Shown in pieces: positions 36,961 through 61,493 of a stretch of DNA of 64,000 nt. The stretch comes from Hyphomicrobiales bacterium (GTDB taxonomy: Bacteria; Pseudomonadota; Alphaproteobacteria; Rhizobiales; Methylopilaceae), in the NCBI GenBank assembly GCA_022842205.1, contig JALHQA010000003.1, positions 62,001-126,000 on the forward strand, read 5' to 3'. How positions within the stretch are numbered: position 1 is the first letter of the stretch; every line of letters starts with the position of its first letter. The notes below the pieces were generated by a model that saw nothing but the letters and a program-made list of their open reading frames with translations, was not told the origin of the DNA and searched no databases. The position numbers and the translations under genes are program-made.

Positions 36961-37674
36961 CTATTCGGTTAATCCCGCCGCGGCGCGATCCACGAACCAG
37001 GTCAGCCGCCCGTTGGGCTTCAGGCGCGCGGCGGGGAAATCCGCGCCTGCGAGAACCTGTTTCAGCCGCTTGGCCTTGCCAGTGCCCGTGACGAAGAAGC
37101 CGGAAGCACGGCAGCTTTCAAGCGCCGGAAATGTCAGTGTCATGCGCGGCACGAACGGATCGTGCTTCGGCTCGGCTGCGATGCACCAGCGCGTGCGCTC
37201 CTCAAGCGTGGGCTGCCCCGGAAACAGCGACGCCGTGTGGCCGTCATCGCCCATGCCGTTCAGCACGAGGTCGAACAGCGGCCGCGTGGGGTCGAGTTTA
37301 TCGGCGCCGTAGAAGCGCCTGAGCTCCGCATCGTAACGCGCCGCGCTTTCCTCATTGCTTGCAACGCCGGTCGGCATCGGATGGATATGCGCGGCGGGAA
37401 CCGGAACCTTGTCGAGCAGAAGGCGGCGCGAGACGCTTGCATTGTTGCGCGGATCGCCGGGCGGCACGAACCGCTCGTCGCTCCAGAAGAAATGCATGCG
37501 CTCCCACGGCAGCTTGCGCGCGGCGATAAGTCCATACAGCGTTTCCGCCGTCGATCCGCCGGTGAGACAGATTGCGACACGGCCAGAATTCTCCGCGACG
37601 ACGGCCTCGAACCAATCGGCGGCCGCGCGGCCCAGCGCCTCGCGATCCGGAAAGACTTTCACCTCACCCGCCAT
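36961..37674 (-). CDS. pgl: 6-phosphogluconolactonase
   Basis: Hydrolyses 6-phosphogluconolactone in the pentose phosphate and Entner-Doudoroff routes. The 237 residues start at ATG 37674, overlapping the zwf stop by 11 nt. Motifs: CLTGGSTAETLYGL, FWSDERFVPPGDPRNN and LVLNGMGDDGHTASLFPG. Other in-frame ATGs upstream extend into zwf and are less likely. It follows zwf in a gnd-zwf-pgl order. Confidence 0.94.
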   Translation of the reverse strand: MAGEVKVFPDREALGRAAADWFEAVVAENSGRVAICLTGGSTAETLYGLIAARKLPWERMHFFWSDERFVPPGDPRNNASVSRRLLLDKVPVPAAHIHPMPTGVASNEESAARYDAELRRFYGADKLDPTRPLFDLVLNGMGDDGHTASLFPGQPTLEERTRWCIAAEPKHDPFVPRMTLTFPALESCRASGFFVTGTGKAKRLKQVLAGADFPAARLKPNGRLTWFVDRAAAGLTE

Positions 37675-39196
37675 CGGCGATGCTCCGCCACGCACGGCCA
37701 TCGCCCGCCAGAAGTTCGTCTGCTTTCGCCGGACCCTCGCTGCCGGCATCATAGGTTTCGATGCCCTTGGCCCCGGCTTCGCGCCATGCCTTGATGAACG
37801 GCTCGACCGCACGCCATCCCGCCTCGACGCCATCGGCGCGCTGATAGAGGATCGCGTCGCCGGTCATGCAGTCATAGATCAGCGTTTCATAGCCCGTCGC
37901 TGGCGCGGCTTCGAAATAGTCCTTGTACTCAAACGTCATGCCGACAGGGACGATCTCGATCTCCGGCCCCGGCACTTTCGCGTTGAAGTGGAGCTTGATG
38001 CCTTCTTCCGGCTGGATGGCAATGACGAGAAGATTGTCGCCGAGGGCCTCCATCGGCATGTTGCGGAACATCGAGACCGGCGCCTGCTTGAATTTAACCG
38101 CGATCTCGGTGCGGCGTTTCGCCAGCGCCTTTCCCGTGCGCAGATAAAACGGCACGCCGGCCCAACGCCAGTTGTCGATGTCCAGACGCAGCGCGACGAA
38201 GGTTTCAGTGGTCGAGCCGGGCGAGACGTCGGGCGATTTGCGATAGGCCGTCACCTCGCGGTCGCCGATCTTTCCCTGCCGGTATTGCGCGCGGACGGAA
38301 TTGCGCAGCGCCTCCTCGGCATTGGGAATGCGGATCGAATCCAGCGCTTCGGCCTTCTGCGAGCGCACGGAATTCGCCTCGAACCGCACCGGCGGCTCCA
38401 TGGCGACGAGCGACAGCAGCTGGAACAGATGGTTCGGCACCATGTCGCGCAGCGCGCCGGTCGCATCGTAGAATTTCCCGCGCGTACCGACATCGACGGT
38501 TTCCGCCACGGTGATCTGCACATGATCAATGTGGTTGCGGTTCCAGATGGGCTCGAACAGTCCGTTCGCGAAGCGCAGGATCAGGATGTTCTGGACGGTC
38601 TCCTTGCCGAGATAATGATCGATCCGGAAAATCTGCTCCTCGTCGAGAACGCTGAGAAGCTCGCGGTTGAGCGCGCGCGCGGATTCGAGGCTGGTGCCGA
38701 ACGGCTTCTCGACGATCAGCCGCCGCCACGGACCACCTTCGCGCTCTTCCGACAAGCCCGCGGCGCCGAGATGCAGCGCGATCGGCGCAAAGGCCTGCGG
38801 CGGCGTCGCGCAATAAAACAGCCGGTTGCCCTGGCTGAGACCCGACGCCTCAAGACGCTCCAGTTCCGTCTTCAGCTTGGCATAAGTCTCCGGGTCGTCG
38901 ACATCGCCGGACAGGTAGCTGACGCAGGACAGCAGCCATTTGGCGGTGGCCGCGTCCACCTTCTGAGTTGCAAATTCGGCAAGGCCCTTTTCGAGATGGG
39001 CGCGAAAAGCATCCGCCGACATCTCCGCGCGCGCGACACCGAGAATGCGAAACCCGTCCGACAACAATCCCTCGGCCGCAAGATTGTACAGCGCCGGCAC
39101 GAGCAGGCGCCGTGTCAGATCGCCGGATGCGCCGAAGATCACGAAGACGCACGGATCCGCCGGATCGGGCTTCACATGATCGCTACTTGTCGACAT
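37664..39196 (-). CDS. zwf: Glucose-6-phosphate 1-dehydrogenase
   Basis: Oxidises glucose-6-phosphate to the lactone with NADP. The 510 residues start at ATG 39196 and overlap gnd by 14 nt. [10 protein letters not shown] is the cofactor-binding loop, [13 protein letters not shown] holds the catalytic His and substrate Lys, and [12 protein letters not shown] follows. Length is normal. It lies between gnd and pgl. Confidence 0.96.
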
Positions 39197-40181
39197 CGGG
39201 CGGCGGTACCTTGGGTTCGAGATGGCCGCCGAAGCCCTTGCGCATGGCGGACAGGACTTTCTCGGCAAAGGTATGATCCTGCCGCGAGCGGAAGCGCGTG
39301 TAGAGCGCCGATGTCAGAACTTCGGCCGGCACGGCCTCGGCAACGGCCGCCTGCACCGTCCAGCGTCCTTCCCCGCTGTCGTCGACATAGCCCGAGTAGG
39401 AACCTAGATCGCCCTCCTCGACCAGCGCGGCCGCGGTCAGGTCGAGCAGCCAGCTTGTAACGACACTGCCGCGCCGCCAGACTTCGGCGACCTCGGTGAT
39501 GTCGATATCGAGACGCTCTTCTTCCGGCAGACGGCTGGAAGACGCATTCTTCAGAATATCGAAGCCCTCGGCATAGGCCTGCATGAGGCCATATTCGATG
39601 CCGTTGTGAATCATCTTCACGAAATGCCCGGCGCCGTTCGGCCCGGCGTGGATATAGCCCTGCTCGGCGCGAGCGTATTCTCCTTCGCGGCCCGAAGTGC
39701 GCGGAATATCGCCGTGGCCCGGTGCTAGCGCGAAGAAAATCGGATCGAGCCGTTCGACCACCTCTTTCTCGCCGCCGATCATCAGGCAATAGCCGCGCTG
39801 GACACCCCATATTCCGCCGGATGTACCGACATCGACATAATGAATGCCCTTTTCGCGAAGCTCCTTCGCGCGACGCAGGTCGTCTTTCCAAAAGGTGTTG
39901 CCGCCATCGATAATCGTGTCGCCCGGCTCCAGCAGCGCGGCCACCTCGGCGATGACAGCTTCGGTGATCGGCCCTGACGGCACCATGACCCAGACGGTGC
40001 GCGGCTTTTCGAGTTTGCCGACAAAATCCTTGAGATCGGACGCTCCCAACGGGCCTTCCCTGGCGAGTGCCGCCACGGTCTCGCTGTTGCGGTCGTAAAT
40101 AACGGCCGAATGGCCTTTGACGAGCAGACGGCGCACAATATTCGCGCCCATCCGCCCAAGGCCGATCATTCCAAGCTGCAT
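39183..40181 (-). CDS. gnd: 6-phosphogluconate dehydrogenase, short (YqeC/GndA-type) form
   Basis: Oxidative decarboxylation of 6-phosphogluconate to ribulose-5-phosphate. The 332 residues are the short form, often NAD-preferring, rather than the about 470-residue NADP form. Motifs: [34 protein letters not shown], and [18 protein letters not shown]. It heads the gnd-zwf-pgl genes, 63 bp after the HAD phosphatase. Confidence 0.94.
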
Positions 40182-40244: not shown

Positions 40245-40871
40245 TTAAGCCTTAAAGCCCGCCAGCCGCACGATATCCACGACCTCGTCGAGCACGATAT
40301 CCGGCGCGCATGACAACAGCGCCCGGCGGCTGGAATACCCCCATGTGACGGCCGCGAATTTCATTCCCGCATCGCGGGCAGCCTGGGCGTCGCGTATCTC
40401 GTCGCCGACATAGACCGCATCGGCAGGTGAAACGCCCGCCGCTCCTATTGCCCGCCGCAACTTCCTTGCTTTGCCGAAAAGCGCCGCACCGCAAAAATAG
40501 CCCTCAAACAGGCCCGCCGTTTCGTGGCCGAGCGTGCGGCGGATGCCGGCCTCACTGTCGGAACTCACCATCGCGAGCGCGATGCCACGCGATTTCAGAT
40601 CTCCGAGCGCCGCCGCCACGCCGTCGAACAGCGGGATGTCGGCAGTCTGCTTCATCGCCCGCATGTCGCGAGCGATGCGCGGCACGTTCCAGAGCGGCAC
40701 ATTCAGCGCTTTCAGGATCTCACGCGCGCCGAGATCGCGCAGTTCTTCGCGCTCGGCCGACTGAACCTGCCGGAAGCGATGGCGGCGCGCGACATCATTC
40801 AAGACATCGCAGAACCACGGAAAGGAATTGGCCAGCGTTCCGTCGAAATCGAAGATGACGAGCCTTTTCAC
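40245..40871 (-). CDS. HAD-superfamily phosphatase
   Basis: A 208-residue haloacid dehalogenase-type hydrolase. The nucleophile motif is FDFDGTLANS (D8 and D10), motif II is MVSSDSE, and the acidic motif is YVGDEIRDAQAAR. It resembles phosphoglycolate phosphatases, but the substrate is not defined. It lies 7 bp after the amidotransferase, so it may be transcribed with the catabolic operon as well as in front of gnd. Confidence 0.85.
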   Translation of the reverse strand: MKRLVIFDFDGTLANSFPWFCDVLNDVARRHRFRQVQSAEREELRDLGAREILKALNVPLWNVPRIARDMRAMKQTADIPLFDGVAAALGDLKSRGIALAMVSSDSEAGIRRTLGHETAGLFEGYFCGAALFGKARKLRRAIGAAGVSPADAVYVGDEIRDAQAARDAGMKFAAVTWGYSSRRALLSCAPDIVLDEVVDIVRLAGFKA

Positions 40872-40878
40872 AGGCCGG

Positions 40879-41748
40879 TCATGCCCTGCCCCGTTTGCTC
40901 ATGGCCGGCTGGACCAGCCTTTCGATCCAGTTGCGTATCTCGGTCAGACGCCGACGCGGATCGAGCACATCCGCATCGTAGCCGAGACGCCATGAAATGT
41001 CCTTACGTGACGAATCCTTGCCGAGAGTCTCCAGATCGTCCGCATGGCGCGTCAGCTCATCAAGATCGCGGAACGGCCCCTCCTCGACCAGCACCTTGCC
41101 ATAGCGGCGCATGATGCCCGCCATTTCGCCGAGCGTGAACTCCGGGTGATACTGCACCCCCCAGAAGGTGGACTCGCCACGCACGATTTCCGCAGCCTGC
41201 ACCTCGGAATGGGCATTCGTCGCCGTCACGACCATGCCGGCCGGCTTCTCGCCTACCTCGTCGGTATGCACGGCGGGGGCATCGAAACTCGGGCCCTTGC
41301 CCTCGTGCATCGCATGACCGTGTCCGGCTTCGGTCAGCACAATCTTCCGGGCAAGGCCGATTTCCCGCCCATTCCTCGAGCGCACTACCGTTCCGCCCGT
41401 CGCCACCGTGGCGACCTGCAAGCCCCAGCAAGATCCGAACATCGGCACTCCGGTGTCGAAAATCTGACGCACCAGCTCGACCTGGCGAACGGCTTCCGGA
41501 CGTTCATCGTAGATGTTGAGCGCAGAGCCCGTAATGGCGATGCCGTCGTACCCGGCGATGCCGCTCGGATCGGGGATATTCGCGCCTTCGTCGGTGGGAA
41601 AGCAGATATCGACGATAGCCTCCGGCGCGATCGTCCGCAGCACGTCCGAATAGGACTGGCTATAGGTCTGTCCGGTAAACTCCGCCTGCTTCGCACGCGC
41701 CCGCGCAGTGTTTCCTTCCACGACCAGAAGGCGCGGAGCACGGCCCAT
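40879..41748 (-). CDS. Class I glutamine-amidotransferase-type hydrolase
   Basis: A 289-residue enzyme with a GATase-1 domain. The nucleophile cysteine is in FGSCWGLQVA, and the His/Glu pair in WGVQYHPEFT. The first 30 residues, MGRAPRLLVVEGNTARARA, begin a flavodoxin-like core. No synthetase domain is attached. In gamma-glutamyl catabolic routes such a protein cuts the gamma-glutamyl amide, as PuuD does for gamma-glutamyl-GABA. Its start overlaps the alcohol dehydrogenase stop as TGATG. The 60-residue C-terminal extension is unusual. Confidence 0.85.
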   Translation of the reverse strand: MGRAPRLLVVEGNTARARAKQAEFTGQTYSQSYSDVLRTIAPEAIVDICFPTDEGANIPDPSGIAGYDGIAITGSALNIYDERPEAVRQVELVRQIFDTGVPMFGSCWGLQVATVATGGTVVRSRNGREIGLARKIVLTEAGHGHAMHEGKGPSFDAPAVHTDEVGEKPAGMVVTATNAHSEVQAAEIVRGESTFWGVQYHPEFTLGEMAGIMRRYGKVLVEEGPFRDLDELTRHADDLETLGKDSSRKDISWRLGYDADVLDPRRRLTEIRNWIERLVQPAMSKRGRA

Positions 41749-42923
41749 CACTTGCCTCCGAGGTCGCCGCTTATGGCGGCGCGTATCAGAACCTCGAAAT
41801 CCTTCGCCTTCATCGGCACGGGATTTCCTCCGGTCGACGGATCGCGTTCGGCGTGCTCCGCAAGTTCGGCGACTTTGTCCTCCTTGACACCGAGATCGGC
41901 CAGCGTGTGCGGCACGCCAAGCTCCTTGCGGAAAGCCAGAAGCCACTCCATTACGCCGTCGAAACCCGGTTTTTTGAGATCGAGCACGCGCGCGAGGAGC
42001 GCCATCCTGTCCTCGACGGCCTTGCGGTTGAACGCCAGAACGTAAGGAAGCATGACGCCATTCGTCATGCCGTGATGGGTGTCGTAGAACGCCCCGACCG
42101 GATGGGACACGGAATGCACCGCGCCGAGTCCCTTCTGGAAAGCGGCCGCGCCCATCGATGCCGCGGCCAGCATGCGCGAACGAGCCTCGATATCGGTACC
42201 ATTCTTGTACGCACGCGGCAGATACTCGGCGATCAGGCGAATGCCTTCGACCGCGATGCCGTCGGCCATAGGATGGAAGCCCGGCGCGCAATAAGCCTCG
42301 ATACAGTGCGCCAGCGCGTCAAAACCCGTGCCGGATGTGAGGAACGGAGGCAGGCCGACCGTTAGCTCCGGATCTGCAATGACGATCTTCGGCAGGAGTT
42401 GCGGATGAAAAATGATCTTCTTCTCGTGCGTGTCTTCCTTTGTCAGAACCGACGCGCGACCGACCTCGGAACCCGTGCCCGCGGTCGTCGGCACGGCGAC
42501 GATCGGCGCGATCCGCGATGTGTCCGCCCGCGTCCACCAATCGCCGACATCCTCGAAGTCCCAGACCGGGCGCGTCTGCCCCGGCATGAACGCGACGAGC
42601 TTGCCGACATCGAGGCCCGAGCCGCCGCCGAAGGCGACGACGCCATCGTGTTTGCCGGTGCGGAACGCGGCCACGCCGGCATTCAGATTGCTTTCGGTCG
42701 GGTTGCCCTGGACGTCGGAGAACACATCGTCCGTCATGCCGGCGGCCTTCAGCACGCCCCGCGCCTTTTCAAGGATCGGCGTTCCGGCGAGCCCGCGATC
42801 CGTCACGATCAACGGACGCGAGATACCTGCGGCCTTGCAGGCCTCCGCCAGCTCAGAAATCCGGCCCGGGCCGGTCAATACGCGCGTCGGATAGTTCCAC
42901 GCGCCCGTCAGCACAGCACTCAT
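41748..42923 (-). CDS. Iron-type alcohol dehydrogenase
   Basis: A 391-residue group III dehydrogenase from ATG 42923, with GAGG five bases upstream; ATGs at 42926 and 42947 are alternatives. NAD region GGGSGLDVGKLVA, metal ligands in DALAHCIEAY, HSVSHPVGAFYDTHHG and TTAGTGSEVG match the family. Such enzymes oxidise a primary alcohol to an aldehyde. The next gene upstream is an aldehyde dehydrogenase, so the two steps are paired. Confidence 0.92.
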   Translation of the reverse strand: MSAVLTGAWNYPTRVLTGPGRISELAEACKAAGISRPLIVTDRGLAGTPILEKARGVLKAAGMTDDVFSDVQGNPTESNLNAGVAAFRTGKHDGVVAFGGGSGLDVGKLVAFMPGQTRPVWDFEDVGDWWTRADTSRIAPIVAVPTTAGTGSEVGRASVLTKEDTHEKKIIFHPQLLPKIVIADPELTVGLPPFLTSGTGFDALAHCIEAYCAPGFHPMADGIAVEGIRLIAEYLPRAYKNGTDIEARSRMLAAASMGAAAFQKGLGAVHSVSHPVGAFYDTHHGMTNGVMLPYVLAFNRKAVEDRMALLARVLDLKKPGFDGVMEWLLAFRKELGVPHTLADLGVKEDKVAELAEHAERDPSTGGNPVPMKAKDFEVLIRAAISGDLGGK

Positions 42924-42982
42924 CATAACCTCGGCTCTAATGTTCATATGACCCGGCGCTCACAGCGCCGCGTGGCCCGTTG

Positions 42983-44368
42983 TCAAATCTTCTCGCGCAA
43001 ATGGAAGCTCTTCGGACGCGTCAGCGCCGCATAGCCGAGTTCGGACAGCGACGCACCGCGGCCCGTATCCTTGACGCCGGTCCAGGCGAGAGATGGATCG
43101 AGGTAATCGCAGCGATTCATGTAGACCGTCCCGGTCTCGACCTGCTCGCCCAGTTCCTCGGCCCTGTCTATATCCGACGTCCAGATCGATGCGGTCAGTC
43201 CGTACGGGCTGTCGTTCATCAGCTTCAGGGCTTCCTCGTCGGACTTCACTTTCATGATGCCGACAACCGGGCCGAAGCTCTCCTCCACCATGACCCGCAT
43301 CGAGTGATCGACATTCGTCAGAACCTGCGGCGCGAGATAGGGCGTTCCGGCCTTGTCGGCCGGGAAGTCGTTCGGATCGAGATGAGCCTTCGCGCCCTTG
43401 GCCAGCGCCTCGGCGGTCTGATCGCGCACAAGATCGGCAAACCGGGTATGCGCCATCGGGCCGAGCGTCGTGGCCTCGTCGAGCGGATTGCCGAGGACAT
43501 ATCTGGACGTCAGGTCGACATATTTTTCGACAAACCGGCCGTAGAGATTCTCGTGCACATAAATACGCTCGATGCCGCAGCAGCACTGGCCGGAATTGTA
43601 GAACGCGCCATCGACGAGATTCTCGACGGCATAGTCGAAATTCGCATCTGCCCGTACATAGGCCGGGTCCTTGCCGCCGAGTTCGAGACCGACGGTCGTG
43701 AACGTCCCGGCGGCAGCGCGCTCGATGGAACGGCCGCCTTCGACCGAGCCGGTGAAGTTCACATGATCGACTCCGCTCGAGGACAGGATTTTCGAGGTGT
43801 CGTCATGAGAGAGGACGAGATTGCGGAACAAGCCTTTCGGCGCGCCGGCCTTGTCCATAGCCTGCTGGAAGCGCTCGCCGACGAGAATGGTCTGCGAGGC
43901 ATGTTTCAGAATGACGGCGTTACCCGCAATGATCGCCGGCACAATGGTATTGACGGCTGTCAGGAACGGATAGTTCCACGGCGCGATGACCAGGACAACA
44001 CCCACGGGATCGCGGCGGACGAAGCGCCTGAAGCCATCACGCGGCTTCGGAACGATATCGGCGAGCGAGGCGTCCGCAAGCTCGATCATCGTCCGCACGC
44101 GTTCTTCGACGGGACGAAATTCGCCGCCATAGCGCACCGGCCGGCCCATCTGCAGCGCGAGTTCCGGCACGACTTCCTGATTGAGGCTCAGCAGCGCGTC
44201 CATGAACTTGAGCGCCAGCGCCTTGCGTTCGGCAAGTGGCGTCTTGCGCCATGCGGCCTGCGCGGCGCGCGCTTCCTTCAGCGCGACGTCGATTTCAGGC
44301 GCGCTGGCCGTCTTCCGGCGCGCGACCTCTCGCCCGTCCACGGGCGATATGCAGACGATCTCTCCCAC
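42983..44368 (-). CDS. NAD(P)-dependent aldehyde dehydrogenase
   Basis: A 461-residue ALDH from GTG 44368, preceded by GGAG at six bases. Catalytic glutamate in GLELGGKDPAYV, nucleophile cysteine in NSGQCCCGIER, and APWNYPFLTAVN for cofactor binding are visible. It resembles succinate-semialdehyde and gamma-glutamyl-aldehyde dehydrogenases. It lies 14 bp after the glutamine-synthetase-like gene and precedes the iron-type alcohol dehydrogenase. Confidence 0.92.
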   Translation of the reverse strand: MGEIVCISPVDGREVARRKTASAPEIDVALKEARAAQAAWRKTPLAERKALALKFMDALLSLNQEVVPELALQMGRPVRYGGEFRPVEERVRTMIELADASLADIVPKPRDGFRRFVRRDPVGVVLVIAPWNYPFLTAVNTIVPAIIAGNAVILKHASQTILVGERFQQAMDKAGAPKGLFRNLVLSHDDTSKILSSSGVDHVNFTGSVEGGRSIERAAAGTFTTVGLELGGKDPAYVRADANFDYAVENLVDGAFYNSGQCCCGIERIYVHENLYGRFVEKYVDLTSRYVLGNPLDEATTLGPMAHTRFADLVRDQTAEALAKGAKAHLDPNDFPADKAGTPYLAPQVLTNVDHSMRVMVEESFGPVVGIMKVKSDEEALKLMNDSPYGLTASIWTSDIDRAEELGEQVETGTVYMNRCDYLDPSLAWTGVKDTGRGASLSELGYAALTRPKSFHLREKI

Positions 44369-44382
44369 GATGTTCTCCAGAC

Positions 44383-45747
44383 TCAGATGATTTCGAAATA
44401 CCGCGCCATTTCCCAATCGGTGATGGCGCGGCGGAATTCACGTTCTTCCCACTCGCGCGTCGCGGCGTAGTGATCGACGAAGTCGTCGCCGAACAGAACG
44501 CGCGCGGGTTTTGACGCTTTCAGGCGACCGGCGGCCTCCATCAGAGAGCGCGGCAGGGCCAGCTCCGGCTTGTGCTGCAGCGCATAGGAATTGCCTTCCA
44601 CAACGGGCTCCGGCTCGATCCTGTTTTCCACGCCCCAAAGGCCTGATCCGATGGCCGCGGCGAACGCGATATAGGGATTTATATCGGCAGCAGCCACGCG
44701 ATATTCCACCCGCTGGCTCTTTGCCGCACCCGGAATGACCCGCAGGGCGGTCGTGCGGTTTTCAACGCCCCAGGTGGCATCGGTCGGGGCCCAGAAACCG
44801 GGGATCAGCCGCGTATAGGAATTCACGGTGGACGCGACCATCGCCAGCAGCTCCGGCATCAGTTTCTGCTGACCGCCGACGAACCACCGCATTGTGTCGG
44901 ACATGTTGTAGGGCTTGCCCTCGTCGTGGAAGGCGGGCTTGCCGTCCTTCGTCAGCGACACGTGCAGATGGCCGGACTGGCCGGGCCAGTCCTTCGACCA
45001 TTTGGCCATGAACGTCGCCATCCAGCCGCGCTGCTGCGCCAGAACCTTGGTGAAGGTCTTGAACAGCGCGGCGCGGTCCGCCGCCTCCAGGGCGCCAGAA
45101 TATTCGATCGCGGCTTCGAGCACGCCGGGGCCCGTCTCGGTGTGAAGGCCCTCGATCGGAAACCGCATATCCTGGCCGAGCGCCAGAAGATCGTGATAAA
45201 AATCCGCGTGTACGGACGACCGCAACATCGAATAGCCGAAAAAGCCCGGCGTGATGTTTTTCAGGTTACGATAGGCCTTTTCGCGTACCGAATGCGGCGT
45301 TTCCTCGAAGAGAAAGAACTCGAATTCGGCCGAGGCGACGACATCGAAGCCCTGCCCCTTCGCGCGCTCCAGAACGCGGCGCAGCGTGCCGCGCGGACAA
45401 ACTGCTTCCGCCTTCTCGGTGAATTCACCGAGGAAGAACAGCATGTCGCCTTCAAACGGAACGTCGCGGCAGGTTTCGGGAAGGATGCGGGCATTCGCAT
45501 CGGGATAGGCCGTGTGCCAGCCCGTATAGGTCACATTGTCATAGAGCTGATCGTTCGAGTCCCAGCCGAGCACGACATCGCAAAAACCGAAGCCCTTCTC
45601 CAGCGCGGAGAAAAACTTTGGTCTCGACATGTATTTCCCGCGCATGATGCCGTCGGCATCGACGACACCGACCTTCACATGCTCAAGCCCGCGTTCCTCG
45701 ACGATTTTTCTGGCGTCGGCGGCGGTCTTTACATCGCGGGAGTCCAT
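44383..45747 (-). CDS. Glutamine-synthetase-like gamma-glutamyl ligase
   Basis: A 454-residue GS-family ligase from ATG 45747. It has the GS core: SAEFEFFLFEE, HTETGPGVLEAAIEYS, GHLHVSLTKDGK (MHVHQS position), NSYTRLIPGFWAP and ENRTTALRV. It differs from nitrogen-assimilation GS in lacking the adenylylation tyrosine region. Such GlnA-like ligases (PuuA, IpuC, GlnA4) attach an amine to the gamma-carboxyl of glutamate. With ALDH, alcohol dehydrogenase and amidotransferase downstream it is the likely first step for an amino alcohol. Confidence 0.88.
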   Translation of the reverse strand: MDSRDVKTAADARKIVEERGLEHVKVGVVDADGIMRGKYMSRPKFFSALEKGFGFCDVVLGWDSNDQLYDNVTYTGWHTAYPDANARILPETCRDVPFEGDMLFFLGEFTEKAEAVCPRGTLRRVLERAKGQGFDVVASAEFEFFLFEETPHSVREKAYRNLKNITPGFFGYSMLRSSVHADFYHDLLALGQDMRFPIEGLHTETGPGVLEAAIEYSGALEAADRAALFKTFTKVLAQQRGWMATFMAKWSKDWPGQSGHLHVSLTKDGKPAFHDEGKPYNMSDTMRWFVGGQQKLMPELLAMVASTVNSYTRLIPGFWAPTDATWGVENRTTALRVIPGAAKSQRVEYRVAAADINPYIAFAAAIGSGLWGVENRIEPEPVVEGNSYALQHKPELALPRSLMEAAGRLKASKPARVLFGDDFVDHYAATREWEEREFRRAITDWEMARYFEII

Positions 45748-45824
45748 GGCGTTCCGTCCGGTTGTTCTTGTGGGGGTGCGGCCGGGCATCGGGGCCCGGC
45801 CGCCATAGTTTCAGACCCGAGACA

Positions 45825-46895
45825 TCAGCCGGCGCTGTAAAGGCCGCCGGCCTTTCTGAGGATCGCGTTGTAGTCCTTGAAGATCTTGACCACCTTGGCT
45901 TTCTCTTCGCTTTCGGCGGCGATCTCGTCCCAGAACTTCAGCGCGGCGTCTTCTACCTGACGCCACTCCTCGGGCGGAATCGTCGTGAGCTTCAGCTTGG
46001 TGCCGGTGGCGCGGAGCTTGGCTTCGCCGCCCCAGTACCACTGGTAGCGATAATCGTGACCGGCCTCGACGCAGGCCTGCCAGAGCGCCTTCAGATGGTC
46101 GGGGAAGTCCGCCCACTTCTTTTCGTTGACGAACCACGAGCCGATCCAGGCGCCCGAGATGTTGTTGGTCAGGAAATGGTCCGTCACGTCCGCCCAGCCC
46201 ACCGTGTAGTCTTCGGTGATGCCGGACCACGACATGCCGTCGAGTTCACCCGTCTGTACGGCGACCTGCACGTCCTCGTAGGGAATCGACACCGGCACAA
46301 CGCCGAACTGGGCAAGGAAGCGGCCCGCGGTCGGGAAGGTGTACAGGCGAAGACCCTTCAGGTCGTCGAGCGAGTTCAGCGCCTTCTTGGTGTTGAAGTT
46401 GCACGGGTCCTGACCGGCCGCCGAGAGCCAGACGACCCCGCCGGCCTTCTTGTAGTTCTCGCGCCAGATGTCGGCGAGACCATACTGATGGAACAGCGTA
46501 GGCACGTCGAGCGCGTGTTTCGTGGCGAAGGGGAAATATCCGCCGAACACCGAGATCTCGACCGGCGCCGCCATCGAGTCGTCGTCCGAATGCACGGCGT
46601 CGATCGTGCCGGCCTGCAGTGCACGGAACAGCTCGCCGGTCGGGACGAGCTGGTCGGCATAATACAGCTCGATCTCGGCCTCGCCTTTCGCGGCCTTGTT
46701 GAACATGTCGATCGCCGGCTTCGTCACATGGGGACCGAGGGCCGCGCCGGCATAGGTCTGCAGGCGCCACTTGATCGGCGCCTGGGCATGGATGGCCGGA
46801 GCGCCCAGTGTGGTCGCGCCCGCGGCGCCGGCAGCAACGACGCCGGCTGTCTTGAAGAACTCACGCCTGCTTTTTGTGTTGGGTGTGTCAGTCAT
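45825..46895 (-). CDS. TRAP transporter substrate-binding protein, Tat-exported
   Basis: A 356-residue periplasmic binding protein. The N-terminus SRREFFKTAGVVAAGAAG is a twin-arginine signal. The usual conserved arginine of the LKGLKxR motif, which binds carboxylates, seems to be a tyrosine here (DLKGLRLYTFPTAG, about 174-187). That suggests a ligand without a carboxylate in the usual place. It is upstream of the ligase genes and just after the DctM gene. Confidence 0.9.
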   Translation of the reverse strand: MTDTPNTKSRREFFKTAGVVAAGAAGATTLGAPAIHAQAPIKWRLQTYAGAALGPHVTKPAIDMFNKAAKGEAEIELYYADQLVPTGELFRALQAGTIDAVHSDDDSMAAPVEISVFGGYFPFATKHALDVPTLFHQYGLADIWRENYKKAGGVVWLSAAGQDPCNFNTKKALNSLDDLKGLRLYTFPTAGRFLAQFGVVPVSIPYEDVQVAVQTGELDGMSWSGITEDYTVGWADVTDHFLTNNISGAWIGSWFVNEKKWADFPDHLKALWQACVEAGHDYRYQWYWGGEAKLRATGTKLKLTTIPPEEWRQVEDAALKFWDEIAAESEEKAKVVKIFKDYNAILRKAGGLYSAG

Positions 46896-46925
46896 CGTTC
46901 GCTCCTGTCATTACACTACATCGGC

Positions 46926-48254
46926 CTATTCTTTTGTATAGACGTGGTTCGGCAGCCACGTCGCGATCTCGGGAAAGATCCCGATGATGACAAGTGTCAG
47001 CAGCATAATCCCGACAAACGGGACGATCGACCGGTATATATCGGGCAAGCTGATGCCCGGCGGCGCCATGGCGCGCATCAGGAAGAGATTATACCCGAAG
47101 GGCGGCGTCAGATAGGCGATCTGGCAGGTGATGGTGTACAGCACGCCATACCAGACAAGATCAAATCCAAGGGCCCCGGCCAGCGGAATGAAGAGCGGCG
47201 CCACGATGACGAGCATGGCGGTGTCGTCGAGGAAGACACCGAGAACCAGAAAGGTCAGCTGCATCAGGACGAGGATCTGCCAGGGCTCAAGGCCCAGATC
47301 CCCCAGGAACAGGCGTTCGATCGATTTGACGGCGCCGAGTCCGTCAAACACCGCACCAAAGCAAAGCGCCGCCGTGATGATCCAGAAGAACATGCACGAG
47401 ATGCCCAGCGTCTTGCGCGTCGTCTCATGCAGGACTTTCCACGTCAGCCGCCCACGGAGAAGAGCCGCGATGATCGACGCCACGGCGCCGACGGCCGAAC
47501 TTTCGACAAGGCTTGTGACGCCGGTCAGAAACAGGCCGGTCATGGAAACAAAAATGGCCAGCGGAACGATGCCGGCGCTGAGCAGCCGGAATTTCTCGCC
47601 CCACGTGATGGACTCGCGCTCTTCCTTCGGCAGCGGCGGCCCCAGACTGGGCTGAAGCCAGCAGCGGATCACGATGTAAAGGATGAACAACGCCGCCATC
47701 AGGAGACCGGGGAACACCCCCGCCATCCAGAGATTGCCGACCGGCTGGCGCGCGATCATGCCGTACAGCACCAGCACCACGCTCGGCGGCACGAGAATGC
47801 CGAGCGTCGAGCCTGCCTGCACGACGCCGGTCACCATGATCTTGTCATAGCCTCGTCGCAGCAACTCCGGCAGCGCGATCGTCGCGCCGACCGCGAGACC
47901 GGCGACACTGAGACCGTTGATCGCGGAAATGATGACCATCATCAGGATGGTGCCGATCGCAAGCCCGCCGCGCACCGGCCCCATCCAGACATGGAACATG
48001 CGGTAGAGATCGTCGGCGATATGCGACTCCGCCAGCATATAGCCCATGAACACAAACAGCGGCAGCGTGAGCAGCGGGTACCACTTCATCAGCTTCATCG
48101 AAGCCGAGAACGCAAGATTGAACGAACCGTCACCCCACAGGAAAAGAGCAGCCGCCGCGCCGACGAAGCCGATCACGGCGAAAACCCTCTGCCCCGTCAG
48201 AAGCAGAAGCATCATCGAAGAGAACATCAGAAGGGCAATCAGACCGTAACTCAT
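46926..48254 (-). CDS. TRAP transporter large permease subunit (DctM-type)
   Basis: A 442-residue membrane protein with about 12 hydrophobic segments. LPLFVFMGYMLAESH, the NGLSVAGLAVGATIALPELL stretch and GSTLGILVPPSVVLVLYG are typical of DctM subunits. It drives sodium- or proton-coupled import with the binding protein and DctQ. Its start overlaps the dctQ stop as ATGA. Confidence 0.94.
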   Translation of the reverse strand: MSYGLIALLMFSSMMLLLLTGQRVFAVIGFVGAAAALFLWGDGSFNLAFSASMKLMKWYPLLTLPLFVFMGYMLAESHIADDLYRMFHVWMGPVRGGLAIGTILMMVIISAINGLSVAGLAVGATIALPELLRRGYDKIMVTGVVQAGSTLGILVPPSVVLVLYGMIARQPVGNLWMAGVFPGLLMAALFILYIVIRCWLQPSLGPPLPKEERESITWGEKFRLLSAGIVPLAIFVSMTGLFLTGVTSLVESSAVGAVASIIAALLRGRLTWKVLHETTRKTLGISCMFFWIITAALCFGAVFDGLGAVKSIERLFLGDLGLEPWQILVLMQLTFLVLGVFLDDTAMLVIVAPLFIPLAGALGFDLVWYGVLYTITCQIAYLTPPFGYNLFLMRAMAPPGISLPDIYRSIVPFVGIMLLTLVIIGIFPEIATWLPNHVYTKE

Positions 48255-48760
48255 GGAAGCGGTTTGCCCTTTATGGTGGCCCAGTCACGGAAGAAGATGG
48301 CGACGGCTTGCAGCAACGTCAGGAAGATGCCGAATGTCATCACGAGCTTGATCGGCAGCATGTACGGGCGCCATGCCGAATAGCTGCGTTCGCCGTAATC
48401 GAAGGCATAGATCGTGCTGAGAACACCGCCAATCAGCAGCATCACAAGGAAAAAGATGAGTGTGAGGTCGGTGAAAAGATCGACTTGCGCCCGGCGCCGC
48501 GTCGGCCATCCGCCATACAGCAGGTCCATGCGGACATGCTCGTCGTTCTTCAGAGAATAGGCCCCGCCGAGGAGATAGTAGGCGACCATGATGAACTGGG
48601 CCATTTCGACGGTCCAGTTCGAGGGCAGGAAAAAGGTTTTGGTGAAGGACGCCCAGAGCAGGACGCCGAGCATCGCGAACACCAGATACATCGCGAACAA
48701 CCCGATGTAATGGCTGACCGAATCGATGAACCGGACATAAGCGACGATGGCTTTAGGCAC
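48251..48760 (-). CDS. TRAP transporter small permease subunit (DctQ-type)
   Basis: A 169-residue protein from GTG 48760, preceded by GGGAGG. Four hydrophobic segments (YIGLFAMYLVFAMLGVLLW and later) and NDEHVRMDLLYG match DctQ. It is the first gene of the catabolic operon and faces the divergent RpiR gene. An earlier GTG at 48793 is less likely because of poorer spacing. Confidence 0.9.
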   Translation of the reverse strand: MPKAIVAYVRFIDSVSHYIGLFAMYLVFAMLGVLLWASFTKTFFLPSNWTVEMAQFIMVAYYLLGGAYSLKNDEHVRMDLLYGGWPTRRRAQVDLFTDLTLIFFLVMLLIGGVLSTIYAFDYGERSYSAWRPYMLPIKLVMTFGIFLTLLQAVAIFFRDWATIKGKPLP

Positions 48761-48882
48761 GGGACGCCTCCCAAGGGCAGACCCGACGATCACGCTTGCA
48801 ACGGAAGGCGTCTACCCGGCTCCCACGCCCCTTCGCCGGTATTTTCTCGCCCAGGGGGTCTTCTCCCGCGCCCTTGGTTGAA

Positions 48883-48927
48883 TGGAATGATCGTTCCAGT
48901 CTATTCATACTCAGTCAACATGGAATG
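48883..48927. promoter_or_regulatory. Candidate RpiR operator between dctQ and the regulator
   Basis: TGGAATGATCGTTCCA (48883-48898) is a near-perfect 16-bp palindrome (seven of eight pairs). A second TGGAATG half-site lies at 48921-48927, 38 bp on. Position between the divergent TRAP operon and the RpiR gene fits a site controlling both. Confidence 0.6.
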
Positions 48928-48990: not shown

Positions 48991-49863
48991 ATGAACAAAC
49001 AAGCAGCAGAATCGGTCGCCGACGTTCTCAACAGCGCGCTGCCGGGTTTGACAGCCCAGGAGCGGCGGGCCGCGCTGTATCTTCGCGATCACTATCCTGT
49101 CGCGGGGCTTGATCCTCTGGCAAGGCTCGCGCGCGCAAGCGGCGTCAGTTCCCAGACCATCCTGCGCCTTACCGCCAAGCTTGGCTTTTCAAACTATCGC
49201 GACCTTCAGGACAGGCTGCGCGGTGAAGTCTCGAGCGAACGCTCATCGCCGCTCGCGCGCATTGTGGCGCGCGGGCCGACCGCGGCGGATGGAGACTGGC
49301 TCGCCGGCTATGCCGGCAAGATGGCCGACAACGTCAATACGGCCTTTTCGATGGTGGTGCGCGAGGATTTCGAAGCCGCGGCGCGGGCACTGGCGGATCG
49401 CAAACGGCCGATGCTGGCTGTCGGCGGCCGCTTTACGCAACCGCTTGCGCGCTATCTTGTCCGTCATCTCGAAATCGTGCGCGGCGGGGTGGAAGAGATC
49501 GGCTCGATTTCGGCGACCTGGCCGGACCGTTTGATCGATGTCGATCGCCGGTCGATCGTCGTTGTGTACGACGTCCGCCGTTATGCACCCGATGTCGTTG
49601 CCTTCGCCGAGATAGCGGCCCAACAGGGCGCGACCGTCATACTGTTCACCGATAGCCGCGCCGCTCCTGTGTCGCATTTTGCATCGCAGGTTTTTGTCGC
49701 GCCGACCGACAGCGCCGGAGCCTGGGACTCTCTGTCGGCGCTGTTTGCGCTGACAGAGGCGATGATCGCGCGCGTGACGGAACTTGAGGGAGGCGGCACC
49801 ACCGAACGCCTCGGCCGCCTGGAAAACATCCGCGCCCGCCTTCTCGGCAACAATGCGCCTTAG
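48991..49863 (+). CDS. RpiR-family transcriptional regulator
   Basis: A 290-residue regulator from ATG 48991. The N-terminal helix-turn-helix covers about 30-85 (LARLARASGVSSQTILRLTAKLGFSNYRDLQ). The C-terminal SIS domain (about 125-260) includes RPMLAVGGRFTQPLA and SIVVVYDVRRYAPDV. RpiR proteins usually bind phosphosugars or small metabolites. It diverges from the TRAP operon, so it is the likely regulator. Its stop overlaps the stop region of the convergent DUF1513 gene by 4 nt. Confidence 0.93.
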   Translation: MNKQAAESVADVLNSALPGLTAQERRAALYLRDHYPVAGLDPLARLARASGVSSQTILRLTAKLGFSNYRDLQDRLRGEVSSERSSPLARIVARGPTAADGDWLAGYAGKMADNVNTAFSMVVREDFEAAARALADRKRPMLAVGGRFTQPLARYLVRHLEIVRGGVEEIGSISATWPDRLIDVDRRSIVVVYDVRRYAPDVVAFAEIAAQQGATVILFTDSRAAPVSHFASQVFVAPTDSAGAWDSLSALFALTEAMIARVTELEGGGTTERLGRLENIRARLLGNNAP

Positions 49864-50966
49864 GAATCCCAGCCCCTGATGTGGTTGTCCCACATATAGC
49901 GGTCCAGATCGCTGCCGCCGACGCGGAGAAGATCGTGGGTGCTGGCGCGCGCCATGCGCACCCCAGCATTACCCGACGACACGACAAACACGCCACTCTC
50001 CGGCATCGCCGCAACGCCGCAGACATCGGACATTGAAGCAAGGCCCAGATATGTGCCGGTCTCCCGGTCCCAGAACGCCGCCATGCCGCCGCGCGGGCTT
50101 GTGGCGCAGATCATGCGCCCCGACGCATCGAGCGCGACCGCGCCGAGATAGTTGTTGAGCCGGTATAGATCCTCGTCGGGCATCGGCAGCATGCGCGTCC
50201 TGCCGTCCGGCAGCACGGTGCCGACAAGAAGCGGCATCTCCTCGATCTCGCCTTCGTACTGGCAGGCGAACACAGCTTCACCGTCAGGCGCTACGGCGAG
50301 ATGACGAAACGACAGACCGGACATATCGCGACCGAAATCGACCTTGCTCTTCGCCTCGCCGGTACGCGGATCGACCAGGGCAAGGCTCGGCTCCATCCGG
50401 CTCTTGTTCAGGATCTCGCGGCCGGTTTGGGGATCGGTGCGCGCGCCGCCGTTGGCGACCAGCAGAAACTCCCCGCCGGGCACGGATGCGACATCATGCG
50501 GACCGATGCCATGTGTCGGCTGTTCGCCGATGCGCGCGTAGTTCTTCGCGACGTCGTAGACGCCGAGCACGCCCTGCCCGCTCTCGAGATTGTTCTCCGT
50601 GGCGTAAAGCAGCCGGCCATCAGCCGAATAGAGTCCATGCCCGTAGTAGTGACGCCGCTCGGGACTGCGCACGAGGACTTTCACCGCGCCGGAAAAGCGG
50701 TTCACCACCGCCATCCAGTCGCCTGGCCGGCGCGCGAACACGACCAGATCGGAATTGACCGGATTGAGCGCGATGTCGTGCCCGCGATCGGGCAATCTCG
50801 TCCTGAACAAAGTGCCGCCATCGGTGGTGAAAACCGCGACGTGCGAGACGCCCGCGGCGTCGTTGACCGCCGACACGTAAAGACGCTCGCCGCCAGACGC
50901 GCGCACCGGGCCGACCGCGAAGGAACTCGCGAGTGCCAGCAAGAACGAGCGCCGGTCGATGTTCAT
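49860..50966 (-). CDS. DUF1513 periplasmic beta-propeller-like protein
   Basis: A 368-residue exported protein. A Tat-like N-terminus, DRRSFLLALASSFAVG, is followed by repeated beta strands: GHDIALNPVNSDLVVFARRPG, HYYGHGLYSADGRLLYATEN, GIGPHDVASVPGGEFLLVANGG. The pattern matches DUF1513, often next to imelysin and DUF1111 genes. It may bind iron or heme as part of an iron uptake route, though the function is not established. It is the last gene of the operon. Confidence 0.88.
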   Translation of the reverse strand: MNIDRRSFLLALASSFAVGPVRASGGERLYVSAVNDAAGVSHVAVFTTDGGTLFRTRLPDRGHDIALNPVNSDLVVFARRPGDWMAVVNRFSGAVKVLVRSPERRHYYGHGLYSADGRLLYATENNLESGQGVLGVYDVAKNYARIGEQPTHGIGPHDVASVPGGEFLLVANGGARTDPQTGREILNKSRMEPSLALVDPRTGEAKSKVDFGRDMSGLSFRHLAVAPDGEAVFACQYEGEIEEMPLLVGTVLPDGRTRMLPMPDEDLYRLNNYLGAVALDASGRMICATSPRGGMAAFWDRETGTYLGLASMSDVCGVAAMPESGVFVVSSGNAGVRMARASTHDLLRVGGSDLDRYMWDNHIRGWDS

Positions 50967-52019
50967 TCAATCTCCGTCGAGACTGTTGAATCCGATCGTG
51001 ATCCCGAGCGCGGGCGGCACATACTGGCCCGAGAGATCGCGCGCGCCGCGCACGGCGTCCCGAAGCAGAAACAGCCTCCTGCGCTGCACGTCGTCGGCCG
51101 CCATTTCCGAAAGCGGCAGGGGAAGCTCCTCCGCCAGCTTTTTCGCCGTGTCGATGGCCCCGACCGTCGAGGTTCCCGCATCACCCGGGCCGAGGACGAT
51201 CCAGGTGAGATCCGCGACAGCCTGAAGATTGAGAGCAATCGTCTGGCTTGAGAGCCCGCTGCGCCACCATTGCGCCGCCTTCGGCTTCACATCGGCCGCC
51301 GTCTTGCCCATCACGGCATCGAGTTTCAGATCGCCGACCACCTGATAGGCGGTGAGAAGATCGGTCGCGAACCGCGTCACGACTTCGCGGGCAATCGTGT
51401 CATCGGCCCTGATCTGGTCCTTCGCAGGCCCCCAGCCATTGACGATGTCCTGTACGACATTCTTCAGATTGCCGGATATCGCGACGCCCGCCGCGCAACG
51501 CCGCTTCTGCGCATTGCCCGATGCGACCAGCGCATCACGCGCATTGCCCTCGTAAAGCAGACGTTCGAGCGCGGGGAGGCCCTGGACGGCGACGCTCTTC
51601 TTCGACATCGCATCCGGCGTCAATACATCGGATTCGGACAGCATGCGCCGCAGCCCACGCTCGACATCGTTCTTGCGCTCCGGCCAGTAAGCAATGCGCT
51701 CGTACCGGAAGCCGTCCGACACCGGACCGTAGCGCAGCAGTTCCACGCTCGACCATGCGTTGACGGCGTTGGCGAACTGTTCGGTGAGGCGGCTGAAATT
51801 CCTCTGCTCCGGTTCCGCTGCGCAGAATTCCGTCCATGCGGCTTCCTGGGCCTGCATCCGGGTCAGCAGCACGCCATAGCGCGGCTCGGCAAACTCTTCG
51901 GCGATGCGCAGCGCCAGCAGCTTGTGATCGACGTTGCTGGCGGGAGGAATGTTCTCCTGGGCGTGCAAAGGCAGAACCGAAAGAAGAAGAAACGCAAGCG
52001 CGCCGAGTCTGTGCATCAT
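50967..52019 (-). CDS. Imelysin-family periplasmic protein (second)
   Basis: A 350-residue protein with a signal peptide ending near PLHAQ. LPALERLLYEGNARD matches the imelysin GxHxxE region, but the histidine is replaced (GLPALE), so metal binding may differ from the first imelysin. A C-terminal FLLRDAVRGARDLSGQYVPP and ALGITIGFNSLDGD follow. It is adjacent to the DUF1513 gene with no gap and overlaps DUF1111 by 4 nt. Confidence 0.87.
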   Translation of the reverse strand: MMHRLGALAFLLLSVLPLHAQENIPPASNVDHKLLALRIAEEFAEPRYGVLLTRMQAQEAAWTEFCAAEPEQRNFSRLTEQFANAVNAWSSVELLRYGPVSDGFRYERIAYWPERKNDVERGLRRMLSESDVLTPDAMSKKSVAVQGLPALERLLYEGNARDALVASGNAQKRRCAAGVAISGNLKNVVQDIVNGWGPAKDQIRADDTIAREVVTRFATDLLTAYQVVGDLKLDAVMGKTAADVKPKAAQWWRSGLSSQTIALNLQAVADLTWIVLGPGDAGTSTVGAIDTAKKLAEELPLPLSEMAADDVQRRRLFLLRDAVRGARDLSGQYVPPALGITIGFNSLDGD

Positions 52020-53191
52020 AGTCCTTCGACATAGCGCACGAGTGCCGCGCGGTCGGTGTCCTTCATTGCATCATATCTCGCCCGCGCGGCCGAGGCCTCG
52101 CCACCATGCAGGGCAATTGCCTCAGCGACTCCGGCGGCGCGGCCATCGTGCAGCAGGCCGCTCTTCGCGGCAATGGCACGGGACATTCCCCATAAGGGAG
52201 CCGTGCGCCACTCCGTCGGCGCAACGCCGGGCTCGGTCGCTCCGCCGTCAAGACTATCGCCCAGATCGTGCAGCAGAAGATCCGAAAACGCCCGGACCTC
52301 GCCATGCGAAGACGGCAGCGACGGCACATGACACGACGCACAGCCGGCAGCGGCAAACAGTTTTTCGCCTTCGAGTGTCGTCATGGATTCCGGCGGCGGG
52401 ACGTTGGCAAGATAATCCGCAAGCATGGCAACGAGATCGTGACGAATTTCAGGCTCTGTCAGCGTTCCCCCGTGCGGCGCGGCACGGCAGGTCTCGTTGA
52501 GGCAGTCGCCTGCCAGCGCAGGTTGTCCGAGCGTCGACATGCCGAGGTCCATGGCGAAGGCCAATTCGGTCTGCGCCGCCAGGGAGACGCCGGAGGCCTT
52601 CAGTCCGAACCGTCCCAGCCTGTGGCTGCCGTCCGGCGATGCGATCCAGTTCGGGCGTCCCGAGATGCCGTCGCCGTTTCGATCGTCGGGATCGGCGTTG
52701 GCGAGAACCGCCTCTTCCGGCACCGCCGCCAGAAGTCCGAGCCCCCGCAGCGCCGGTGCGGCGCGAAGACCCGCGCGCGTTTCATCCGCCATTGGCCCGA
52801 ATGAGAGATCGCCGACGCCTGCGCCGGCATCCGTCATGGTGATGCGGCCTTCGGGCTCAAATCCCGGTATTGACGCCGTCTGCAACTGTCCGCCGTAGGA
52901 TGGATCGTGACGCCCATCGGCATCGGACAGTTTCACCACGGTGCCCTGATGGGTGAAGCCGCCCTGCCCGTCCGGGATCCGCGCCGCGCGGTCGAGGCCC
53001 TGATGACAGGCGGAACAGGCCCGTGCGTTGAACAGCGGGCCGAGCCCGTCATTGGCGAGCGTCGATGACGGCGCCGGCACCCAGGCGCGCTCGAACAGCG
53101 CCTTGCCGATGGCGATGGAAAGATCGCGGCCGCCGGCCAGCGCCCCGGTTGCAGCGAACAGAACTGCGACGGTGATCCCGGCCTTGCGCAT
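52016..53191 (-). CDS. Di-heme oxidoreductase-like protein, DUF1111
   Basis: A 391-residue periplasmic protein from ATG 53191, with a signal peptide ending near ALAGG. Two CxxCH heme motifs are present: ACSACHQG near 59 and CASCHVPS near 292. DUF1111 proteins are described as putative thiol oxidoreductases and commonly accompany imelysins. A redox role in iron uptake is plausible. Its start overlaps the multicopper oxidase stop as TGATG. Confidence 0.9.
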   Translation of the reverse strand: MRKAGITVAVLFAATGALAGGRDLSIAIGKALFERAWVPAPSSTLANDGLGPLFNARACSACHQGLDRAARIPDGQGGFTHQGTVVKLSDADGRHDPSYGGQLQTASIPGFEPEGRITMTDAGAGVGDLSFGPMADETRAGLRAAPALRGLGLLAAVPEEAVLANADPDDRNGDGISGRPNWIASPDGSHRLGRFGLKASGVSLAAQTELAFAMDLGMSTLGQPALAGDCLNETCRAAPHGGTLTEPEIRHDLVAMLADYLANVPPPESMTTLEGEKLFAAAGCASCHVPSLPSSHGEVRAFSDLLLHDLGDSLDGGATEPGVAPTEWRTAPLWGMSRAIAAKSGLLHDGRAAGVAEAIALHGGEASAARARYDAMKDTDRAALVRYVEGL

Positions 53192-54642: not shown

Positions 54643-54649
54643 TCAGTCC

Positions 54650-55918: not shown

Positions 55919-56198
55919 GGGAAGGTCTCCAGGGTGCCGTTCGGCAAGATTGAACCCGCCGGACTCAGCCGTAGCAGGCAAGGCGCACGGAGACCCCAGG
56001 ACCACCAAGTTGTCAATAAACAAACAGGCAATTTATAATTGTAATAATTCCAGTTTATATGCAGTCTAATCTGACTTATGCGCATACAATAAAGAAGCAC
56101 CTAAATCTCATATAGTATATTGTAAGCGAAATCTGTATTTATACGATCAGATATTGGCCTACCACGGTATATTTTTGCTTCCATACGAACAATAAAAA
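55919..56198. other. AT-rich regulatory region upstream of the iron operon
   Basis: The stretch from about 56010 to 56200 is strongly AT-rich in an otherwise GC-rich window. Direct elements such as TTATAATTGTAATAA (about 56034-56048) and TATAGTATATTG lie here. The operon is iron-related, so an Irr, RirA or Fur site is likely, but no clear consensus could be matched. No open frame of note is present. Confidence 0.5.
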
Positions 56199-58644: not shown

Positions 58645-58675
58645 CTCTTCCGGGGAATTTCTGACGCCAAGAACG

Positions 58676-58702: not shown

Positions 58703-58740
58703 TATTTCAAAAAACAAGATCCACGGGGCAGGCTGGAATT

Positions 58741-61490: not shown

Positions 61491-61493
61491 GCC

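Follow-up and report, generated by a model that had tools for sequence, protein, structure and literature searches.

The DNA analyzed here is a 64-kb stretch of contig JALHQA010000003.1 from a Hyphomicrobiales bacterium (source assembly GCA_022842205.1, 2.78 Mb in 17 contigs), in the following called the window. It carries, from position 48793 down to 40879 of the minus strand, seven genes for the small (DctQ) and large (DctM) permease subunits and the solute-binding protein (DctP) of a tripartite ATP-independent periplasmic (TRAP) transporter, a glutamine synthetase (GS)-like ligase, an aldehyde dehydrogenase (ALDH), an iron-containing alcohol dehydrogenase (ADH), and a class-I amidotransferase. 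These genes very probably form an operon for the utilization of ethanolamine via γ-glutamylation that works without ethanolamine ammonia-lyase. The operon is a hybrid of two versions of the known ethanolamine glutamylation operon. By sequence comparison, it differs from the published operons with the importer EtoVWX in the ligase subfamily, named GSb here, and in the class-I amidotransferase, which would replace an N-formylglutamate-amidohydrolase-type enzyme (FGase).

In the route that we infer for this organism, the EtoX-like DctP would take up periplasmic ethanolamine and the EtoVW-like permease would import it. The GS-like ligase would couple ethanolamine with glutamate at the expense of ATP to γ-glutamylethanolamide, the alcohol group of which would be oxidized to the aldehyde by the iron-containing ADH; the ALDH would then form γ-glutamylglycine, and the class-I amidotransferase would release glutamate and glycine from it. 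An RpiR-type regulator would control the operon, probably via a palindrome at positions 48883 to 48898. A first-pass annotation of this region had read the genes as a Puu-type route extended by an ADH step for an amino alcohol such as ethanolamine. Glutamylation of an amino alcohol and the extra ADH step are retained here, with ethanolamine as the best candidate by inference, and the literal Puu class is given up.

Organization of the operon

All seven operon proteins matched their Pfam families above the cut-off, in agreement with the one-strand gene order of the first-pass annotation, and the close spacing or overlap of most genes described there is also present. In gene order, the junctions measure −4, 30, 35, −34, 35, and −1 bp (negative values denote overlaps), the 34-bp overlap between ligase and ALDH holding only if the TTG start of the ALDH is correct. 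The longest frame of the EtoV-like DctQ gene (48251 to 48793; PF04290, 70 bits) begins at 48793 with GTG; an in-frame start further downstream, at 48760, is also possible. It is followed by the genes for the EtoW-like DctM (46926 to 48254; PF06808, 227 bits), which is 64 to 76% identical to the DctM proteins adjoining EtoX-like DctP in relatives, and for the EtoX-like DctP with a Tat-type signal (45825 to 46895; Pfam DctP, 87 bits). The enzymes comprise the putative γ-glutamyl-amine ligase (44383 to 45789; PF00120, Gln-synt_C, 329 bits), the ALDH with its uncertain TTG start (42983 to 44416; PF00171, Aldedh, 400 bits), the iron-containing ADH (41748 to 42947; PF00465, 165 bits, plus the C-terminal domain PF25137, 155 bits), and the proposed γ-glutamylglycine hydrolase of the class-I amidotransferase type (40879 to 41748; PF00117, GATase, 76 bits). 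The amidotransferase proper has 289 amino acids; a longer frame extending up to 42291 enters the ADH gene. The RpiR/MurR-type regulator, which was absent from the earlier gene list, is encoded divergently on the plus strand (about 48991 to 49863; HTH_6 and SIS domains above the Pfam cut-offs), its start presumably being the ATG of MNKQAAE. It is 74 to 78% identical in three genus-mates, and the divergent placement is kept in relatives.

The solute-binding protein resembles an ethanolamine-binding protein

TRAP transporters are typically carboxylate importers, and a selectivity arginine (Arg-147) was found in 96.8% of 6142 DctP proteins; Csal_0678 of Chromohalobacter salexigens lacks it and binds ethanolamine (PMC4646407). 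In structure 4uab, Csal_0678 is in complex with ethanolamine, which is coordinated by Glu220 (PMC12410723). This structure (same sequence in 4xf5) was the best solved relative of the window DctP (E value 2.2e-145, the next-best at 3e-17), and the two proteins are 65.5% identical over 316 amino acids. They share the loss of the arginine, Tyr185 occupying its canonical site in the window DctP, and the glutamate, Glu228 aligning with Glu220 of Csal_0678. In a residue alignment limited to 77 DctP proteins over 300 amino acids, the arginine site was occupied by Phe in 58, Tyr in 17, and Arg and Val in one protein each, and Glu228 was conserved in 75, the two exceptions being distant paralogues (40 to 44 bits). 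Glu228 is the better match to Glu220 in view of the numbering in relatives close to Csal_0678: counted from the most probable start, the matching glutamate of these proteins mostly lies at residues 214 to 218 and the alternative glutamate nearby at residues 203 to 207. In a FastTree phylogeny of 102 rows the window DctP fell into the supported half of the tree that contains Csal_0678. Within the set of loci compared, the eight proteins most closely related to 4uab are linked to the other ligase type, not to GSb. The N-terminus of the protein (SRREFFK), judged by eye, has a Tat-type motif and thus agrees with the export route assigned in the first-pass annotation. The substrate indicated by these comparisons is strongly suggested for the importer and indirectly for the enzymes.

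EtoX-like proteins (E ≤1e-60) were encoded in 68 of 199 genomes of the order and in 27 of 398 genomes sampled across the phylum, the window's own genome included in both cases. The nearest EtoX found outside the genus (81% identity) belongs to a locus in which the 1.5 kb after EtoX hold no recognized ligase and instead an isochorismatase-like frame, named by eye (locus L283, genome G240).

The ligase and the other enzymes

The window ligase is 33% identical to the EtoX-linked ligases of Paracoccus and SC52, which share 62% identity with each other. With the metal, glutamate, and phosphate sites of GS taken as listed in PMC6529630, the ligase retains the residues for metal, phosphate, and arginine. 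Several residues assigned to the ammonium site of GS are replaced, with Gly standing for Tyr179, Thr for Ser53, and Trp for Glu327; in addition, Asn264 is replaced by Pro. All GS residues compared are retained in another protein encoded in this genome, which is 64% identical to E. coli GlnA. An ammonia-dependent glutamine synthetase was rejected as a candidate, as the score with TIGR00653 was 225.9 bits compared to a cut-off of 429 and Tyr179, Ser53, and Glu327 are changed.

Motifs that we take to be characteristic of the respective families place Cys278 and Glu245 in the ALDH and Asp210, His214, His278, and His292 in the iron-containing ADH, and the presumed triad Cys107, His201, and Glu203 is kept in the amidotransferase. 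A search for EutB of the ethanolamine ammonia-lyase EutBC gave no match in the genome (assembly 96.7% complete; E. coli control positive).

Comparison with known ethanolamine glutamylation systems

Neither the pathway nor ethanolamine import by a TRAP transporter is new, because the EtoVWX operon of Phaeobacter sp. MED193 and the GlnA4 pathway of Streptomyces coelicolor have been published. The MED193 operon (MED193_10021-10056) is described as encoding RpiR, a γ-glutamylglycine amidohydrolase, EtoV, EtoW, EtoX, an ethanolamine γ-glutamylase, an ALDH, and an ADH; growth on phosphorylethanolamine raises the levels of its proteins, and the Kd of EtoX for ethanolamine is 7.9 µM (PMC10132767, 2023). 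The window shares with it the RpiR regulator, the TRAP transporter, the GS-like ligase, the ALDH, the ADH, a hydrolase, and the proposed intermediates. It differs in the hydrolase, which in MED193 lies between RpiR and EtoV, judging by locus number, whereas in the window a class-I amidotransferase gene closes the operon at its 3′ end. In annotated relatives, the gene between RpiR and EtoV codes for an N-formylglutamate amidohydrolase, and the EtoX-linked ligase has 33% identity to that of the window. A novel use of TRAP transporters was therefore rejected, as import of ethanolamine by this transporter class is already in the literature (PMC10132767, PMC12410723, PMC4646407); the first-pass annotation had considered such an importer unusual for an amino alcohol, a view overtaken by the ethanolamine binding of Csal_0678 and by the operon published in 2023. 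According to PMC10132767, there is earlier work on Chromohalobacter and on Agrobacterium tumefaciens C58, and another paper terms the Chromohalobacter pathway an in silico prediction. The GSb ligase type may already have been described in the earlier Agrobacterium work, which we take to be Vetting et al. 2015.

S. coelicolor GlnA4 is an assayed γ-glutamylethanolamide synthetase, and its proposed pathway (SCO1610-1615) likewise includes dehydrogenases and a γ-glutamylglycine hydrolase (PMC6529630). Likened by description rather than by sequence, it differs in a permease (not a TRAP transporter) in related species, a hydrolase of the formylglutamate amidohydrolase type, and the regulator EpuRI. 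Ethanolamine binding by EtoX relatives and the ligase chemistry of GlnA4 have been shown by others. A review repeats the ethanolamine glutamylation pathway and does not use the word amidotransferase (PMC9397018). No amidotransferase version of the ethanolamine route was found in the searched literature, which covers few subscription papers.

Ligase types and operon arrangements in relatives

Among 67 EtoX loci of the order, 29 have the uniform order RpiR (divergent), FGase, DctQ, DctM, DctP, GS-like ligase, ALDH, and iron-containing ADH. With this set shared, the gene association in the window is more than chance. Many of the remaining 38 loci are cut by contig ends; at least 11 of them, with flanks of 13 to 19 kb, lack a GS-like gene within 7 kb. 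The FGase gene is annotated as N-formylglutamate amidohydrolase on two plasmids. Wherever a GS-like match was found in the 67 loci, it was 30 to 36% identical to that of the window, except for one of 74% (L031). The window amidotransferase had no match in these loci at 1e-10, and a more sensitive profile located such a protein in two of them (L021 and L048), beyond RpiR and outside the operon. Conversely, between positions 36001 and 54000 the window has no FGase-family gene, and the class-I amidotransferase at the 3′ end of the operon is present instead. Both the ligase and the hydrolase of the window therefore differ in type from those normally accompanying the EtoX importer.

In the same 67 loci, EutBC adjoins the TRAP genes once (L070) and EutB lies about 8 kb away once (L065); neither EutB nor EutBC was found in 144 GSb loci, a set in which some genomes occur twice. 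On plasmid pCO-6 of Chelatococcus sp. CO-6 (L310:497-7047), an EtoX-like TRAP transporter is encoded near eutBC, on the opposite strand and with a DeoR-type regulator between them. This locus continues with two flavin adenine dinucleotide (FAD) oxidoreductases and an FGGY kinase and possibly represents a second catabolic route served by the same kind of importer. The proximity of EtoX-like TRAP genes to those of ethanolamine ammonia-lyase, on this plasmid and in L070, favors ethanolamine as the imported compound.

Within the class, 66 of 385 sampled genomes, the window's own included, encode a ligase of the window type (E ≤1e-100), with identities down to 44%; 80 named GSb loci were taken from among the best matches listed. 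GSb operons often contain an ALDH and an ADH and sometimes the amidotransferase; their transporters are an ethanolamine-permease-like gene, a permease together with FGase (Microvirga), others, or none recognized. In the Microvirga loci (L128, L130, L134, and others), where GSb stands with FGase and the ethanolamine-permease-like gene, no amidotransferase was found nearby. Several Reyranella/Rhodospirillales loci (L149, L151, L163, and similar ones) have GSb beside a different TRAP transporter, the DctM of which shares about 31% identity, and lack an EtoX-like DctP within 7 kb. A plasmid of Burkholderia vietnamiensis G4 (L307:3325-9883) carries a Na+/solute symporter, a divergent RpiR, a ligase with 58% identity, an ALDH, and a class-I amidotransferase, with no iron-containing ADH annotated between these genes.

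Six loci (L031, L210, L124, L140, L289, L290) combine EtoX and GSb in a partial or rearranged form. To explain the nine GSb-linked rows of the EtoX tree, six label changes are required, and supported branches force six; the 24 rows labeled "none" for the ligase are partly short stretches, which makes this label weak. The distribution suggests that EtoX and GSb were joined repeatedly.

Exchange of transporter and hydrolase

The GSb ligase was present in all three genus-mates and in nine of 14 family members of other genera and lacking in the other five. A permease-like gene lies between RpiR and the ligase in the genus-mates G579 and G581 and in all nine ligase-bearing loci from other genera of the family, one of which (L273) ends at a contig edge before the ADH. 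The same slot is filled by EtoVWX in the window and in genus-mate G580. Four permease-like genes that lie beside GSb ligases, scanned with the ethanolamine permease model TIGR00908 (cut-off 382 bits), scored 552 (L185), 362 (L111), 348 (L128), and 348 bits (L119). In a tree of five shared proteins, with the root at the midpoint, an unresolved inner fork, and 3 of 18 rows lacking the regulator, the window and G580 grouped with G579 beside G581, nested inside the permease-bearing family. As judged from these loci, a core of RpiR, ligase, ALDH, ADH, and amidotransferase is common to the family. Most simply, EtoVWX would have replaced the permease in place.

The hydrolases were compared in 115 distinct loci (window included) in which the ligase, ALDH, and ADH genes run in the same direction; 96 of these have at least 5 kb before and at least 4.5 kb after the ligase. 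The set is not an even sample, as its named loci are best matches and Microvirga is frequent among them. Among these 96 operons, 55 had only FGase, 23 only the amidotransferase, none had both, and 18 neither; for the GSb subset the numbers were 20, 23, 0, and 18. The raw exclusivity was significant in Fisher tests (p = 2e-11 over 96 loci and 8e-6 within the GSb loci). As proof of functional replacement it was rejected, as correction for the tree removed the significance (sign test, median p 1). The pattern suggests that FGase and the amidotransferase have the same function. On the ALDH tree, 13 state changes were needed for the hydrolase, 12 for the transporter, and 2 for the ligase type; in these loci ALDH and ligase evidently travel together, and transporter and hydrolase get exchanged.

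A candidate operator upstream of the operon

The palindrome TGGAATGATCGTTCCA (16 bp, positions 48883 to 48898) is the only site with the pattern GGAA[CT]N4[AG]TTCC in the 64-kb window. The pattern occurs between RpiR and the first operon gene in all 12 loci from the same genus and the same family (L266 to L277), one of which (L267) has a second match elsewhere; it is also present in L116 and absent from L117 and L127. We regard the palindrome as a candidate operator at the family level, present with either transporter. A single operator for all RpiR-led operons was rejected: the loose pattern was found in 9 and the strict pattern in 6 of 79 RpiR regions, whereas the remainder of the loci would predict 0.041 and 0.004 matches per region. 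These counts are lower bounds, since the longest reading frame served to place each region; no site was seen in L147 and L126, although it is present on the same contigs taken as L269 and L273.

Neighboring genes

A gene for a HAD-type hydrolase (40245 to 40871) that starts 7 bp downstream of the operon and has no tested tie to the pathway was excluded from it. Beyond it, 6-phosphogluconolactonase, glucose-6-phosphate dehydrogenase, and 6-phosphogluconate dehydrogenase are encoded on the minus strand (36961 to 40181). On the other side, the minus strand from 49860 to 56023 encodes a DUF1513 protein, two imelysin-type proteins, a di-heme oxidoreductase, and, in an overlapping frame, multicopper-oxidase domains; together these genes perhaps form an iron-uptake cluster. 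The urea ATP-binding cassette (ABC) transporter genes urtA, urtB, urtC, and urtD (57349 to 62270, plus strand), each above its NCBIfam cut-off, represent a nearby second nitrogen-acquisition system.

Discussion

Of the alternatives to ethanolamine, the same chemistry acting on another small amino alcohol (for instance 1-amino-2-propanol, alaninol, or 3-aminopropanol) and yielding a different glutamylated amino acid survives best, and we consider it improbable. Any primary amino alcohol would be compatible with the enzymes, glutamylated alaninol is an intermediate of isopropylamine breakdown, and the ligase is about equally far from the EtoX-linked ligases (33% identity) and from annotated IpuC (38%). 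The ipu cluster on plasmid pTC2 of Paenarthrobacter aurescens TC1, which encodes this IpuC, likewise has a putative class-I amidotransferase and an ALDH nearby, but it contains P450 and ferredoxin genes and, in the 11.4 kb seen, no annotated iron-containing ADH or TRAP transporter. The grouping of the window DctP with Csal_0678, its retention of the ethanolamine glutamate, and the pairing of the core elsewhere with ethanolamine-permease-like transporters speak against such a substrate. A polyamine or simple amine route is very unlikely. Ligase, ALDH, and class-I amidotransferase fit the general plan of the E. coli Puu pathway, with its sequence of glutamylation, oxidation, and hydrolysis, and a ligase relative with 55% identity (L309) lies near a spermidine/putrescine-type ABC transporter. 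However, Puu acts on putrescine and has the oxidase PuuB where the window has the ADH; no PuuB-type or other amine oxidase is present among the operon genes, to which the search for PuuB was confined. The window ligase is 28% identical to PuuA and reached 179.2 bits with the PuuA model NF045547 (cut-off 650), and the relatives of the importer bind ethanolamine. Least probable of all is an accidental neighborhood of a carboxylate-importing TRAP transporter and enzymes for another substrate: carboxylates are the usual TRAP substrates and the TRAP genes are an exchanged part of the operon, but Tyr185 replaces the carboxylate arginine, EtoX-type DctP recurs with GS-like, ALDH, and iron-containing ADH genes, and the TRAP genes occupy the slot of the relatives' ethanolamine-permease-like gene.

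Several observations weigh against ethanolamine glutamylation or against the proposed roles of its parts. The distance of the ligase from both the usual EtoX ligases and IpuC means that its substrate could differ, and it retains Asp50 and Glu212 of the ammonium site. EtoX homologues with about 55 to 59% identity often have no GS-like gene nearby, and because of this EtoX likeness alone is no proof of the route. The exact arrangement of the window is rare (3 of 217 annotated loci: the window, L112, and L127), and three of the four scanned permease-like genes remained below the TIGR00908 cut-off. RpiR regulators more often respond to sugar phosphates. As to the hydrolases, 18 of the 96 operons carry neither, and the exclusivity is not statistically shown because the supported branches of the ALDH tree provide three independent pairs only (five on all branches). 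Finally, the literature searched, which is short on subscription papers, yielded no assay of a GSb-type ligase or of this amidotransferase type.

With ethanolamine as the preferred substrate, we lean on balance, and by a small margin, towards a proposal of three parts taken as a whole: that GSb and its partner amidotransferase are a second putative γ-glutamylethanolamide synthetase/γ-glutamylglycine hydrolase pair, found across Alphaproteobacteria and in some Gamma- and Betaproteobacteria; that the route is modular, ligase and ALDH moving together and importer (EtoVWX, ethanolamine permease, or others) and hydrolase being repeatedly exchanged; and that EtoVWX was joined to GSb on several separate occasions. 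That close relatives fill one transporter slot in two ways offers a simple means of assigning a substrate to the uncharacterized core genes. Membrane lipids are a source of ethanolamine, and etoX was reported to be abundant and expressed in the ocean (PMC10132767). If GSb acts in the same route, surveys with EtoX or the usual ligase as the marker of the pathway would miss the operons that combine GSb with a permease.

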